Shown here: positions 17,420-59,710 of the stretch, piece by piece
Layout: each line of letters opens with the position of its first letter
How positions within the stretch are numbered: the stretch's first letter is position 1
Source of the DNA: Fibrobacter sp. UWB4
GTDB lineage: Bacteria; Fibrobacterota; Fibrobacteria; Fibrobacterales; Fibrobacteraceae
Assembly (NCBI RefSeq): GCF_002210345.1
Contig: NZ_MWQI01000002.1
Location: 124,001 to 188,000 of the forward strand
Length of the DNA stretch: 64,000 nt
Direction: 5' to 3'
The notes under the pieces: model-generated
Told to the model about the DNA's origin: nothing
The model's database searches: none
Seen by the model: the letters and a program-made list of their open reading frames with translations, nothing else
Program-made: the position numbers and the translations under genes

Positions 17420-18178
17420 TTAAAACCAATAGCCGATGCCGAGCTGAATTTTGTTGAATAGGTAATACGAACCGACCATACCTTCGTCGATATATTCGAA
17501 TTCCTTTTCGACGGATTCGGTACCCGTCGCATTGTCCGTACGGCTATTCCATCCAGAAACGGTGTAGCTGCCACAAGTTTTATTGACCGTCACAACATCG
17601 GTCAGTTGATATGACAAGTGCACATCGACAAAGAGGCCAAAAGAAAATTCGTGTCCGAGACCTACAGATAAGCCTGCTCCGAAAAAGCGGTCGTCATGGC
17701 ATTTGTCCTGCCGATGTTCTTTCGGAATATAAAATTCACTTTTTCGCATAAGCAAAAAATCAAAAACCGGCCCCGCCTCGAAATAAATTATTTCTGGAAT
17801 CTGGAACTGCGCCATCACAGGAATTTCTAAATAAAGTAGATAATCCTTATTATCACCTTCCCACAAAGATTCTGAGCATCCATCGCAGCTAACACCCATT
17901 TGTTGATCGTCCGAAATAAAATAGCGGTAGTCTAGCCCGACCGAAGGATGCAGCGCAAAACGGTTCGAAAGCTGGTACAGCGCATCAAACGAAAGCGTTG
18001 CGCCGGACCCGACACCGTCCGCATAAACACCCCAGGGAGCATCGGTAATCTCGTTAACCTTACTCAAGTTCAAGTGAGTTCCCAATCGCAAAGGTCTGTC
18101 AGTCGCAGCAGCCGATTCAGCCCCACCGGCTAGCAAGAGAACGACTGCGGCGACCTTCATCATTTTTTCAAACAACAT
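17420..18178 (-). CDS. PorT-like outer-membrane beta-barrel protein
   Basis: This 252-residue protein starts at an ATG with the ribosome site AGGAAG. A signal peptide ends about GGAESAAA. Alternating strands follow (LRLGTHLNLS, HPSVGLDYRYF, YLLYLEIPVMAQFQIPE, YFEAGPVFDFLL, LSVGLGHEFSFGLF) and a final IQLGIGYWF. The strand IPVMAQFQIPEIIYFEAGP resembles the OMP_b-brl_2/PorT-like family and the protein at 37879. Four cysteines in the loops (CDGC and the pair near CHDD/KTCG) may form disulfides. It runs towards the end of epmB. Function is unknown. Confidence 0.7.
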   Translation of the reverse strand: MLFEKMMKVAAVVLLLAGGAESAAATDRPLRLGTHLNLSKVNEITDAPWGVYADGVGSGATLSFDALYQLSNRFALHPSVGLDYRYFISDDQQMGVSCDGCSESLWEGDNKDYLLYLEIPVMAQFQIPEIIYFEAGPVFDFLLMRKSEFYIPKEHRQDKCHDDRFFGAGLSVGLGHEFSFGLFVDVHLSYQLTDVVTVNKTCGSYTVSGWNSRTDNATGTESVEKEFEYIDEGMVGSYYLFNKIQLGIGYWF

Positions 18179-18208: not shown

Positions 18209-19168
18209 TTATTCACGCCCGATAATGCTTTCAATGCATTTTTCAAATTCAGAAATATTGTCCTTTTTATATCGCAACGCATGCGCATCTGAATCCGAAT
18301 CTTTTGTGAGAAAATCCAGATAAGGTGCATTTTCTTCACGGCATAATTCAGGCGTGACATGATTCATCTTGCTATAATGGCCAACGCATGTCGTCCCGTT
18401 AGACGTAAGCCTTACAGCCACGCTATCGCTATAACGGACATAATCCAGTTTCAAGTCAAACGTACGACCTTCATGCGTAAACTTTATGCTCTTATTCGTT
18501 TTCTCCTGAACCGTAATTCCGTATTTCTCAGGACTATTGTTAGTACGTGAATAGAAAACATCTTCGAACATAATGGTGTTGTTACCGTTCAAGAACCGGA
18601 ATACATCACCCACAAAATCCGAGTTCATATAATCATAGTTTGCCATATCACCAGCACGGAATTCAACATCGTTTCCATCGAGTTTAATAAACTTATCGTA
18701 AGCGTCATTGTTACAGTAATAGACGCCATCGATATAAAAGCACGGCGTCAGGCGCCAAGTTCCATCCAACTCGCCAGAAGTTCCGCCAACATATTGAACC
18801 GTCTCAAGTTCTTTTGTTGTTTGATCTTCGTAAATGAAAGAAAGTTGCAATGTATCATTGCGGAAGTTATAGGCATAGTGATTTGTATCGGCAAAATAAT
18901 AGTCTGGATCATAGAAGAGCGATCCATCGCGCTTAAAGCAGCCTCCAAAAATTTCAGATACAAACGTTATAGAATCCTGAGACGCATTAACCAGCACCTT
19001 GCCCTTTTCCACCACGCGGCTCATCGCAAAAGCATCTTCCAGAGAATTATCTTCATCGACCATACCAGTCGTATTCGAATCATCGGTAAACCCAGCACAA
19101 CCGGCAATAAAAGCCATACAAGTACAGCCTACGGCAAAGAAATTTCGAATAAAATCTACAGTTTTCAT
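18209..19168 (-). CDS. unknown lipoprotein, coupled to TIGR02147 gene
   Basis: This 319-residue protein has an N-terminal hydrophobic segment ending in the lipobox IAGC (Cys24), so it should be lipid-anchored to the envelope. The rest is rich in Asp, Asn and aromatic residues with repeated short beta motifs and no domain I know. Its ATG overlaps the stop of the upstream TIGR02147-family gene by four bases (ATGA), a sign of translational coupling. It is followed 30 bp later by the PorT-like barrel gene, so all three may share a transcript. Confidence 0.7.
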   Translation of the reverse strand: MKTVDFIRNFFAVGCTCMAFIAGCAGFTDDSNTTGMVDEDNSLEDAFAMSRVVEKGKVLVNASQDSITFVSEIFGGCFKRDGSLFYDPDYYFADTNHYAYNFRNDTLQLSFIYEDQTTKELETVQYVGGTSGELDGTWRLTPCFYIDGVYYCNNDAYDKFIKLDGNDVEFRAGDMANYDYMNSDFVGDVFRFLNGNNTIMFEDVFYSRTNNSPEKYGITVQEKTNKSIKFTHEGRTFDLKLDYVRYSDSVAVRLTSNGTTCVGHYSKMNHVTPELCREENAPYLDFLTKDSDSDAHALRYKKDNISEFEKCIESIIGRE

Positions 19169-19989
19169 TTATCCCCCACTTTTTTACACAACGGAAACAG
19201 TTGCAAATTCATACGATAAACACAATCGTATTTCTTTACGTTAGAAACAATGCTCGCCACTTTTTTACGGAAAGCGTCCAGTTCTTCAGTAAGGCGTTCG
19301 TAAGCCTCCTTATCAAGCCCCATAGTCACCCCAGAAATATGCCGTTCCCTTCGTGAAAACCTGTTCAAAGCATCAGACGCAAGATTCGCATATTGCTTTT
19401 GCATATTGACAACCGTTGCAGAAACAACTTCGCGAGAACTCGAAATGCCCACACTCGTTTGCACATAATTTCCGCATTCATCCTTTTTCAGAACGCCAAG
19501 CGATTCCTGAAGCTCTAAAGATTTTCGAGCATCGGCGGCAGGAATCGGCGGAATAAGCGCATGCCCCATTTCAAGCGGAGTAGCGCCTTTCATAATCGGA
19601 GCAAGTTCCCTGAGAGCCGGATTCACCCACGACGAAAAATACGCAAAGGACTTGGATTCTAAAAACTCAATTTTATTCCCTTGCGCAATCTGCATCATCT
19701 TTTCAAAAGCCGCCTGGCGCAGATCTGGATTCGAAGAATCACAAAACGTAACCATTTCACGGAAATAATCCGCCTGCGTACCAGACAAATTCATTGCAGG
19801 CAAAACTTTTTCAACACCAATTTTTGAAAGCCGCGTTTTACCGTCACAAACAAGTTTCAAAAAACCCGATGACGAAAACCCGGCAAGCATTGCAAATCTG
19901 CGCCACGTAAACGCAGACTTCTTTTTACGGCATTCGTAAAAATCCTGCATGTACGCGCGATAATCTCTATATTCAAAAACGGATTTCAT
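19165..19989 (-). CDS. TIGR02147-family protein with HTH-like N-terminus
   Basis: This 274-residue protein opens with VFEYRDYRAYMQDFYE, then a helix-turn-helix-like block (RRFAMLAGFSSSGFLKLVCDGK, broken here as 29-40 and 41-50). A helical C-terminal region has SSREVVSATVVNMQKQYANLA and GVTMGLDKEAYERL. These features match the family I know as TIGR02147 (DUF4423), numerous in Fibrobacter and of unsettled function, possibly regulatory. A second member lies at 58793-59710. The downstream lipoprotein gene overlaps its stop. A long inverted repeat lies 129 bp upstream. Confidence 0.8.
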   Translation of the reverse strand: MKSVFEYRDYRAYMQDFYECRKKKSAFTWRRFAMLAGFSSSGFLKLVCDGKTRLSKIGVEKVLPAMNLSGTQADYFREMVTFCDSSNPDLRQAAFEKMMQIAQGNKIEFLESKSFAYFSSWVNPALRELAPIMKGATPLEMGHALIPPIPAADARKSLELQESLGVLKKDECGNYVQTSVGISSSREVVSATVVNMQKQYANLASDALNRFSRRERHISGVTMGLDKEAYERLTEELDAFRKKVASIVSNVKKYDCVYRMNLQLFPLCKKVGDK

Positions 19990-20117
19990 ATTTATTCGCT
20001 TTTCTAAAGCTAAAATAAATAATCTGTCCTAAAAAAGCAATGTACACAAAACAAAATTGCGTAAATTTTTACAAAATCAACGCTTAAAAACGCTATTTTA
20101 AAATTTTCACTTTACCA

Positions 20118-20138
20118 TATGAAACAGTGTGTTTCATA
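20118..20138. promoter_or_regulatory. perfect 9-bp inverted repeat upstream of TIGR02147 gene
   Basis: TATGAAACA, three bases (GTG), then TGTTTCATA form a perfect dyad. There is no T-run beyond it on either strand, which argues against a terminator. It sits between the unknown gene at 20164 and the TIGR02147 gene at 19165, so it may be an operator for the latter. Confidence 0.4.
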
Positions 20139-57111: not shown

Positions 57112-58803
57112 CTACCGGGGACCGGCTTCGTTTTTCACGCGAACGGCAAGTTCAGCACCAGATTCATCAACAGAAACCTTGTAATCGGGCTTATAGCCTT
57201 TGGCATCGCCAGCAAGTTCCTCGCCACTACGGCCAAACCAGTTGTCTATCATGTAAACATAGCCTTCCGTAGCCTTATCCGGCGAGCCATCTTCAATTTT
57301 CAGGCGATAGTCCCGAACAGGCACATTGTTATTGTAAACATTACCTTCAATGTAACAAGACGCCGAATCCGAGCATTCCATTCCAGCATCCCCCACATCG
57401 TAGATGAAATTGTTATAGGCATGAATTTTACCACGACGCGCAAGCACGCCTCGAAGTTCCAAGTTCGAGAAGTAATTGTGATGCAAAGTCAACGTCTGTG
57501 CTGAATCAACGAAAAGGTCCGGTTCCAGCCCAAATAAAATGCCTGACTGTGCATTTTCAAAACGATTCCACGAGAGCGTAACCGCATTTGAACCGCGCTT
57601 GACATCCACCAGAATTAACGGATATTCTTCGAACCTACAATGGTCCACCCAGACATGGTGCGTGCGGTTATGGATCGAGAGCGCACGACGGCTTGTTGTA
57701 TCATGAGCTGTTATCGCAGGCGCCGTAAAAGTCAAGTTTTCAAAAATAAGATTGGACGATTCATTCGTCAAAATGCCCATTCCCGTAATGCGGACATCGC
57801 GGCCACGGCCATCAATCGTCTTGTTAGACCTTATACGCAGTGGCGACCGCAAATTGTACGAGCCGCTCTTTTCAAAAAGAATCCAGACCGCCCCTTCTTT
57901 TTCAGCGCACTCGCGGAAAGAGCCTGTAGCAACAATCGTTTTTGTAGCAACATCCGCAGAATCCACTTTCGAAGAATCAATGACATCCATCAAATCATCC
58001 GTTGTCGTGACAACGCAAATTTCACCTTTGGCCTTGTTGATTTTTCCTGCACTGTCCGCAAGGCCTGCTGCGCCAAGCGTTCCGGCGGCATATCCCTGAA
58101 TCTGTTTGAGCAAAGCTTCATGGGCGCTCCAGTCGCTCTCGGGATATTCCGTTGCGGCCGACGTTTTAGACTTCACCACCTTAACGGTCGATGAAGTGTC
58201 GGAGCCATCCACAAATAAAGTGTCCCCTGCATTGGATTGCACCGTCGTCGAATGGACTTTTTCCGGGTCGCCAATTTGCACATCGAAACTCCCCTGCGGA
58301 AGCGAGTCAATCACAAAATGCCCCGTACTATCAGGAACAACATAGCGGTCAAGGCCAGCCACGCGAACGACAGGCGACGTTCCAAGCAGCACATAGCCCT
58401 CGATAGACGAAAGCTCACCTAGCTTGATGGTATCGACCTTGGAATCCGACTTGGCATCGAGAGCCACAGAATGCACAGCCCCCGAAGCCTTAGATTCACT
58501 CACGTTACGCGCTTCAATGGTATAGCGGCCGTTACGGACTTCAAACGAGACTTGCCCATCCTCATCTGTTTCGTTCCAAGCATTTTCCGCAGGGCCGCTA
58601 GAAAGGTACTTATCCGGCAAAATACGAACACGCGCCGTAGAAGCAGGCGTTCCATCCGCCATCTGAACATACAAAGCAATAGTCGATTCCGCCTCGGTGC
58701 CACCGGCGACATTTTTTTCACTGCACGATGTCAAAACAAAAGCAATAGCACCAAGCCACACGAGCAAACGCATTTGAGCAACCGTCATCCAGCTAGTTTT
58801 CAT
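57112..58803 (-). CDS. secreted PL1-type pectate lyase lipoprotein
   Basis: From the ATG at 58803 (563 residues) there is a lipoprotein signal with lipobox VLTSC. Two carboxypeptidase-regulatory-like beta domains follow (about 40-180). The C-terminal parallel beta-helix (about 265-560) has NKTIDGRGRDVRITGMG, HHVWVDHCRFEEYP, SWNRFENAQSGILFG, LTLHHNYFSNL and LARRGKIHAYNNFIYD, as in pectate lyases of family PL1. The conserved catalytic arginine is likely in the ARRGK stretch. It would cut pectate at the cell surface. Its start lies inside the end of the TIGR02147 gene (11 bp overlap), so the two are translationally coupled. Confidence 0.85.
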   Translation of the reverse strand: MKTSWMTVAQMRLLVWLGAIAFVLTSCSEKNVAGGTEAESTIALYVQMADGTPASTARVRILPDKYLSSGPAENAWNETDEDGQVSFEVRNGRYTIEARNVSESKASGAVHSVALDAKSDSKVDTIKLGELSSIEGYVLLGTSPVVRVAGLDRYVVPDSTGHFVIDSLPQGSFDVQIGDPEKVHSTTVQSNAGDTLFVDGSDTSSTVKVVKSKTSAATEYPESDWSAHEALLKQIQGYAAGTLGAAGLADSAGKINKAKGEICVVTTTDDLMDVIDSSKVDSADVATKTIVATGSFRECAEKEGAVWILFEKSGSYNLRSPLRIRSNKTIDGRGRDVRITGMGILTNESSNLIFENLTFTAPAITAHDTTSRRALSIHNRTHHVWVDHCRFEEYPLILVDVKRGSNAVTLSWNRFENAQSGILFGLEPDLFVDSAQTLTLHHNYFSNLELRGVLARRGKIHAYNNFIYDVGDAGMECSDSASCYIEGNVYNNNVPVRDYRLKIEDGSPDKATEGYVYMIDNWFGRSGEELAGDAKGYKPDYKVSVDESGAELAVRVKNEAGPR

Positions 58804-59710
58804 GATCGCCCCCTTGAACTTCGGCAGGTTCGCGAGATTGTTGCAATTCAGCACCGCGAATGCGACGCTTGCGCCCTCGCCTCTGCGGTGGCGGATACGG
58901 GTCTGAAAGCGGGAAAAGTTGCATGCCAAGCTGGAATACGCGATTCGGCTTTTCACACGACTGGACTTTAGAAAGCACTTCGCGACGGAACCTGCGCACC
59001 ATTTCGACAAGCTCTTTATAGGTCGCTTCATCGCAGCCAAACGCGAGCGTCGAAAGATTGCGTTCATCACGCTCAAAACGGTCCATCGCCGTTTGCGCCA
59101 CGTCCAAGTTCTGCTGGATGTACGCATTCACAGCGGTACTATAAGATTCAAAGCCACTTGAAACAAGCCCTTGCGTTTGTTCATAAAAACCAGTTTGCTC
59201 ATTTTTCTTGATCATCGAAAGGCGTTCCAAGAGCGCAATCGAAGACTTCACCTGGCTTGCAGAAATCGGCGGGCGCACCATAAGGCCCAACGCCGCATCG
59301 TCGCCCACATACGGGTAAAAGGTCACAAGTTCACGAACAACAGCGTGGTACCAATGGTCAAAATATTCAAACTGGTCCTTCGCCAAGTTTTCGACCTTGC
59401 ATTCCTTGGACGCCACAAGCTTCTCCAAAAACTGGCGGCTTTCCGTATGCGTTTTTGCCTGGTTGAACGAGACCATGTTCGCAAAGTAAGACTTTTCACG
59501 ATCGTCACTGCAAAAAATATTCGCAAAGACTTCAACCATCCGGTCGGTCAAGTTGCGCTTGCCCTGCAAAATCTTATTGAACATCGATGAATCAAAACCC
59601 GCTTTTTCGGCAATAAAACGATGGCTAAAACGCCAGTCGCTTGCATGGCGCTCTTCATAAGCGTCCTTCAAAAATTCGCGGTAATTCAGATATTCAAAAA
59701 TATTGATCAT
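58793..59710 (-). CDS. TIGR02147-family protein with HTH-like N-terminus
   Basis: This 305-residue protein opens with MINIFEYLNYREFLKDAYEE, then a helix-turn-helix-like block (RFIAEKAGFDSSMFNKILQG, about 31-50). A helical C-terminal part ends in a basic tail (PPPQRRGRKRRIRGAELQQ). It is a paralog of the protein at 19165. The stop overlaps the start of the pectate lyase gene by 11 bp. A promoter candidate lies at 59760-59788. It may regulate the coupled lyase, but no DNA target is known; this is inference. Confidence 0.82.
   Translation of the reverse strand: MINIFEYLNYREFLKDAYEERHASDWRFSHRFIAEKAGFDSSMFNKILQGKRNLTDRMVEVFANIFCSDDREKSYFANMVSFNQAKTHTESRQFLEKLVASKECKVENLAKDQFEYFDHWYHAVVRELVTFYPYVGDDAALGLMVRPPISASQVKSSIALLERLSMIKKNEQTGFYEQTQGLVSSGFESYSTAVNAYIQQNLDVAQTAMDRFERDERNLSTLAFGCDEATYKELVEMVRRFRREVLSKVQSCEKPNRVFQLGMQLFPLSDPYPPPQRRGRKRRIRGAELQQSREPAEVQGGDHEN

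Follow-up and report, generated by a model that had tools for sequence, protein, structure and literature searches.

Almost every assessed gene of the TIGR02147/DUF4423 family stands directly ahead of one whose product is secreted and nearly always has a lipobox, and this regulator-lipoprotein pairing is a rule of the family. TIGR02147 proteins are probably Xre-type autoregulators of an operon composed of the regulator itself, a tagged lipoprotein and, at the locus described here, an outer-membrane barrel; this reading is the most likely one because of the pairing, the tag carried by the lipoproteins, the operator and its covariation with the recognition helix. NCBIfam files TIGR02147 as a 'paralog' without function, and Pfam files DUF4423 as a domain of unknown function. 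The locus lies in a 64,000-nucleotide stretch of the genome of Fibrobacter sp. UWB4, hereafter called the window.

Organization of the locus

The regulator gene (19165-19989, minus strand) encodes a protein of 274 aa, recognized from the ORF listing, profile matches and an AlphaFold2 model; it belongs to TIGR02147 (293.5 bits over residues 1-269, curated cut-off 50) and to DUF4423 (PF14394; 92.5 bits over residues 105-267, gathering cut-off 30). The gene behind it (18209-19168, minus strand) encodes a protein of 319 aa whose N-terminus, MKTVDFIRNFFAVGCTCMAFIAG followed by Cys, has by pattern the features of a bacterial lipoprotein: a basic start, a hydrophobic stretch and the lipobox IAGC at residues 21-24, with the lipobox Cys inside the residue 16-35 range. 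No Pfam or NCBIfam family, FISUMP (TIGR02145) included, scores above its cut-off in this lipoprotein (0 families in the domain scans); its mature part is predicted to be mostly beta, as seen in the model of the body, and neither Foldseek nor VIA (best Z 4.3) returned a convincing relative in the PDB. Loci L112-L115 and L119 encode relatives of 613-624 aa, in which the window-type body is apparently doubled in tandem, because matches to it fall in one half or the other.

The two genes overlap by four bases, ATGA (19165-19168, minus strand, from the ORF coordinates), where TGA is the stop of the regulator gene and ATG the start of the lipoprotein gene, just as the earlier note on this DNA had described. 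The note had called this unit the second one with a four-base overlap; in the window's other TIGR02147 unit (57112-59710, minus strand; regulator 59710-58793), the genes have no four-base overlap but overlap by 11 bases or are separated by 4, according to the lipoprotein start codon chosen. The lipoprotein of that other unit reads VAGGTEAEST in its tag region.

A gene for an outer-membrane beta-barrel (17420-18178, minus strand; domain match to PF13568) starts 30 bp after the lipoprotein gene and is likely the third gene of the operon. Among the best 80 related loci, barrel homologues adjoin the unit in 20, after the lipoprotein gene in 16 and before the regulator gene in 4. The barrel gene, the operator and the exchange of passengers described below all go beyond the content of the earlier note.

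Pairing of regulator and lipoprotein genes

The source genome (3.58 Mb, 18 contigs; G000 in the coordinates below) contains 35 TIGR02147 matches, three of which were excluded because one is truncated at the end of a contig and the other two are fragments of a single pseudogene. A gene with signal peptide and lipobox directly follows 31 of the 32 assessable members, at offsets from -20 to +51, whereas among background genes called over 284 kb with a crude gene caller 18/189 are lipoprotein-like (Fisher p 5e-24). The exception (C3:250616; L047:3596-4441) is the only intact member without a lipoprotein, no ORF of at least 100 codons starting within 250 bp; downstream of it, a terminator-like stretch and housekeeping-type genes are seen by eye. 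The pseudogene (L034, G000:C1:810698-811219) consists of two pieces with an in-frame TAG, and the ORF that follows encodes no lipoprotein. In another region (L041, G000:C9:53000-72999) three TIGR02147 units with FISUMP-type lipoproteins are clustered, together with unpaired lipoproteins of the same kind.

The relatives that we compared are the best 80 loci of a profile search, all from Fibrobacter or Fibrobacterales and taken from named MAGs, nearly all of them Fibrobacter. In these best 80 loci the pairing is present in 79/79 with downstream sequence, 76 by automatic call and L152, L165 and L171 by eye, from the Cys; at L142 the automatic call chose the wrong Cys, and this locus was excluded from the tag models and the Mantel test described below. 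A wider sample of the phylum drew on 16 genomes that belong to other genera, families and classes; it comprised 30 members, 28 of them with downstream sequence, and in 27 of these 28 a signal-peptide gene comes next, L090 being the exception. The lipobox pattern is passed by 22 of the 27 paired genes; in the other 5, the Cys is at the expected position, next to a residue that is unusual there. The view of the earlier note that the pairing is what is conserved is therefore borne out across the phylum, in which TIGR02147/DUF4423 was found in 113 of 120 sampled genomes, often in tens of copies. The highest number seen was in genome G104, with 88 first-look TIGR02147 candidates, of which 19 were scored.

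The length of the overlap was compared in the same sets. In the source genome it exceeds the chance rate, the point on which the earlier note had staked its claim: the offset is exactly -4 in 10/31 units against 2/136 codirectional background pairs (p 6e-7), and any overlap is present in 16/31 units against 16/136 such pairs (p 4e-6). As a signature of the family, the four-base overlap fails within Fibrobacter, where offsets span -26 to +51; in 76 relatives among the best 80 loci they peak at -8 (25), -14 (18) and +1 (12), with -4 in 3, and this distribution rules the four-base overlap out as a conserved feature inside Fibrobacter. In distant genomes -4 returns in 17/27 units, or in 19/27 with alternative starts. 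Because the share of -4 varies between these three sets, tight adjacency is to be regarded as the rule and -4 as one form of it.

A conserved tag behind the lipidated cysteine

In the window lipoprotein the lipidated Cys and a conserved tag form the sequence CAGFTDD at residues 24-30 (19079-19099, minus strand, from the alignment). Among 16 relatives, the window lipoprotein included, the mean conservation of CxGFT[ED]D is 0.93; the corresponding values are 0.47 in the signal peptide, 0.59 in the body and 0.32 over the 18 residues that follow the tag. The tag takes the form [AS]-G-x-[TS]-[ED]-[ED]-x-N in Fibrobacter and G-T-x-[ST]-E-T-x-N in the wider phylum.

The tag was scored by two eight-column models trained on other genomes, with a threshold above 95% of shuffles. 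In the source genome 15/31 and 14/31 of the paired lipoproteins pass, 24/31 over both models, and 7/31 stay below both thresholds; the unpaired lipoprotein-like ORFs, from which four mis-anchored copies of paired proteins had been removed, pass in 0/40 and 1/40 (rank tests 5e-9 and 1e-9). A first tag profile, spoiled by Ser-rich linkers, had given weak separation (at least 6 bits in 16/31 paired and 10/40 unpaired) and was replaced. A strict pattern is found in only 5/31 lipoproteins of the source genome, against 41/76 in the relatives among the best 80 loci, and the tag of the source genome is therefore a loose motif.

Behind the tag, the 31 bodies of the source genome fall into 12 passenger groups, with FISUMP (Fib_succ_major; TIGR02145, PF09603) in 8, CarboxypepD_reg in 9, and a single pectate lyase, CBM_4_9 and lectin. 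Since 8/31 passengers carry FISUMP, there is a physical link between two large paralogous families of Fibrobacter; the window lipoprotein itself is one of those without it. The earlier note had called the lipoproteins of its units unrelated, which agrees with their bodies and disagrees with the short tag after the Cys, common to most of them. Over 4824 pairs without detectable passenger similarity, tags are more alike where the regulators are more nearly identical (rho 0.33; maximum of 500 Mantel permutations 0.155), and at L125 and L126 the regulators are 84% identical, the passengers unrelated and the tag GFT.D identical. As judged from these alignments, the tag tracks the regulator and not the passenger, and the passenger body is exchanged behind regulator and tag.

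A putative operator upstream of the regulator

The most striking block upstream of the regulator gene has the form TATGAAACA-N-TGTTTCATA and is recognisable in 13/13 aligned upstream regions. In the window it reads TATGAAACA-CAC-TGTTTCATA (20118-20138, unstranded), a palindrome centred 139 bp before the regulator start and a putative distal operator. A proximal half-site, GTTTTGT (20046-20052, minus strand), lies 73 bp after the right half of the palindrome, which it matches in 5/7 positions here and in 6-7/7 in orthologues. Anchored alignment with the orthologues suggests a putative -35 box, TTGCTT (20035-20040, minus strand), and, 17 bp after it, a putative -10 box, TATTTT (20012-20017, minus strand).

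The sequence ATGAAACN3-6GTTTCAT occurs a single time in the 3.58-Mb genome, at the window unit; of the palindromes of other units in the source genome, two occur once and one (C9:61320) three times. The operator triplet differs among clades, within the frame ATnnnAC-N3-6-GTnnnAT, which is present in 53/107 upstream regions against a shuffled mean of 0.75 and maximum of 2. The right half is repeated (at least 6/7) 70-75 bp downstream, on the promoter side, in 49 of the 53 palindrome regions, and this repeat matches its own arm in 6.43/7 positions, against 4.98/7 for arms with other triplets (maximum of 200 permutations 5.19). The operator is mostly private to each unit. Generic inverted repeats before regulators were also considered and rejected, since terminator-like hairpins were among them; a clean signal came only from the fixed AT..AC / GT..AT frame.

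Against the generality of the operator counts the fact that 54/107 upstream regions have no such palindrome; among them, a barrel gene at the head of the operon accounts for L125-L128, with the palindrome located before that gene for three of these, and most of the rest have no such explanation. In distant members of the phylum the signal is weak, triple sites scoring at least 12 in 10/29 against 2.3 after shuffling. In most clades the proximal half-site lies a few bases before a TTGac-N17-TAtatt promoter, a layout as for an activator, and in three clades (L145, L124, L130) it shares bases with the -35/spacer region, a layout as for a repressor.

Covariation of the operator with the recognition helix

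Among the 274 columns of the regulator, residue 42 has the best normalised association with the whole triplet, and the first base of the triplet in the right half-site associates best with residue 41, being A with Pro and T or G with Ser in 51/53. Both residues are at the start of the recognition helix in the AlphaFold2 model (helix 43-48). The two loci that deviate from the residue-41 rule are L154, which has A in its other half-sites, and one locus of the L130 cluster, with Cys41. In cluster C6_181392 both states of residue 41 are present side by side with matching triplets, and many other columns also separate its sequences. With a single row kept for each combination of cluster, base and residue, the association has p = 0.005, part of it being due to shared ancestry.

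As an independent test, 41 Fibrobacter genomes were searched for the window palindrome alone, and one locus was read per genome. The window (GAAAC) palindrome is present in 22/41. A TIGR02147 start lies 91-139 bp downstream in 14 of the 22 loci, the window locus included, and in 5 further loci a gene that starts 125-172 bp downstream encodes a barrel or a lipoprotein; L203, L209 and L213 have the palindrome and no fitting gene, which counts against the rule. In L200-L202 the palindrome stands before the barrel gene that precedes the regulator in that clade. At L194 (714-1361, minus strand) an outer-membrane barrel gene has the palindrome 148 bp upstream, with no regulator in the locus. At L193 (134-1384, minus strand), also with no regulator in the locus, a window-type palindrome lies 125 bp upstream of a lone lipoprotein gene, whose product has a VWA domain and a tag-like AGMSEES and is a possible distant target of the regulator.

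The 14 regulators from loci found through the palindrome (L200 included, window excluded) all have Ser41; 13 of them start 91-134 bp behind the palindrome and one about 965 bp behind it. Ser41 is present in four regulators of a clade whose closest relatives in the set (51-52%, L143 and C1_278521) have Pro41, and in L205, although its 82% relative L139 has Pro41. L205 combines a GAAAC-type distal palindrome with the proximal half-site GTTGCAT, so that its triplets differ, and the first base fits Ser41. The evidence that the recognition helix reads the operator is this sequence covariation: the operator triplet covaries with residues 41-42.

Fold of the regulator and likeness to known systems

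The AlphaFold2 model of the regulator has a mean pLDDT of 75, about 90 for residues 1-80 and poor beyond about residue 180. In VIA, residues 7-90 match the Xre-type HTH of HigA, DdrO and P22 c2 with Z 7-9 (HigA about 7.5-9) and residues 105-183 match ArsR-type winged-HTH repressors with Z about 7, values that at 7-8 may by the tool's own note reflect mere common arrangement. With its matches to HigA, DdrO, P22 c2 and C proteins, the model places an Xre-type HTH fold at the N-terminus; a search for sequence relatives in the PDB gave none that is convincing (best E 0.057).

C proteins, the controllers of restriction-modification systems, are small single-domain HTH proteins encoded beside restriction and modification genes, and act by controlling their own gene and that of an effector. 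C.BclI and C.AhdI share with the regulator the Xre-type HTH (Foldseek probability 0.98-1.00) and the position of the regulator gene ahead of a putatively co-controlled effector gene, but they have about 80 aa and no second domain. The TIGR02147 protein, with 274 aa, a second domain and lipoprotein and barrel genes as neighbours, is not a C protein; in its units the effector is a lipoprotein and the second site a single half-site at a distance of 70-75 bp, and there are dozens of coexisting paralogues. HigA-type antitoxins regulate themselves through a palindrome before a two-gene operon. Those of HigBA and GraTA have the HTH fold in common with the regulator; their partner, however, is a toxin, and here it is a lipoprotein with a signal peptide.

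The regulator belongs to TIGR02147 (NCBIfam Fsuc_second) and DUF4423 (PF14394), whose family descriptions contain no operator, pairing rule or tag. In the literature searched, TIGR02147 is not named, DUF4423 is named only as a table row in the accessible part of PMC12546842, and 'Fibrobacter' together with 'FISUMP' was not found. The portions available of PMC4619616, PMC3079729 and PMC6851124 do not mention the pairing, and nothing was found in the literature searched on the operator code, the tag or their combination with the pairing.

Proposed mechanism and alternatives

The sequences themselves show the pairing, the operator, the covariation of triplet and helix, the tag and the exchange of passengers; from these data we infer DNA binding, dimerisation, looping, autoregulation and membrane location. 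The TIGR02147 protein would be a cytosolic sequence-specific DNA-binding protein and the regulator of its own operon, with an Xre-type HTH in front of a winged-HTH-like domain. It would bind the distal palindrome and the promoter-proximal repeat of the right half, about seven helical turns away, probably by cooperating subunits with the intervening DNA looped, and would set the level of itself and of the lipoprotein encoded by the overlapping or adjacent gene, plus that of the outer-membrane beta-barrel in the clade of the window. Paralogue clades would read different triplets via residues 41-42, and dozens of units could therefore operate in parallel with little cross-talk. What evolves as a unit would be a cassette made up of operator, regulator, signal peptide and tag, with an exchangeable passenger body behind it.

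Mere adjacency by chance within a compact genome has a practically negligible probability: short overlaps are common in bacteria, and 16/136 background pairs do overlap, but pairing in 31/32 against 18/189 and its maintenance across the classes of the phylum are far from such a background. It is also unlikely that the tag has no link to the regulator and serves Fibrobacter lipoproteins in general as a signal for sorting or surface export. Lipoprotein export signals in Bacteroidota sit directly behind the Cys, and the tag has the same position; yet, in the source genome, the two models find it in 0 and 1 of 40 unpaired lipoproteins against 24/31 paired ones, and the unpaired count is this low although some unpaired lipoproteins share a FISUMP-type passenger start.

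The one-to-one pairing in cis, and a tag that follows regulator identity where passengers are unrelated (rho 0.33; Mantel maximum 0.155), would also suit a dedicated escort or translational partner that binds the nascent tag and is no transcription factor. Such a role is highly improbable given the two DNA-binding-type folds, the covariation of the operator triplet with recognition-helix residues and the palindrome found before the barrel gene where that gene heads the operon. A sensor of the PrgX/RRNPP type, whose ligand would be a fragment (signal peptide or tag) of the cognate lipoprotein, would detect when its own lipoprotein is made or secreted; it is compatible with the autoregulator, to which it would add the missing signal. 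PrgX, an inducer of which derives from the signal peptide of a lipoprotein, heads the Foldseek rows by E-value (0.16, probability 0.21), the VIA rows for the HTH include PlcR, and the tag tracks the regulator. However, the PrgX match is weak and superposes poorly (rmsd 18), the middle of the model looks more like a winged HTH than like a peptide receptor built of helical repeats, and no processed peptide is known; the C-terminal part of the model, where a helical peptide-binding domain would lie, is poor. We consider this sensor improbable. The same low probability is given to a self-sensing cassette, in which the cognate regulator would recognise the clade-specific tag, before export or as a returned peptide, each unit gauging the export of its own lipoprotein and switching its private operator; if this were true, one specificity code would be split between tag and operator triplet and would allow passengers to be exchanged freely.

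Significance

What is new is a likely function and an operator code for a large family without described function, built from parts of known kinds such as those of C proteins and HigA. The operator and the two-residue code of the proposed autoregulator make the function of TIGR02147/DUF4423 directly testable and would predict regulons from sequence, and the tag offers a handle on a putative lipoprotein sorting or feedback step. Moreover, the arrangement suggests how Fibrobacter-type bacteria may run many separately controlled lipoproteins, with FISUMP, lectin, carbohydrate-binding and pectate-lyase passengers.
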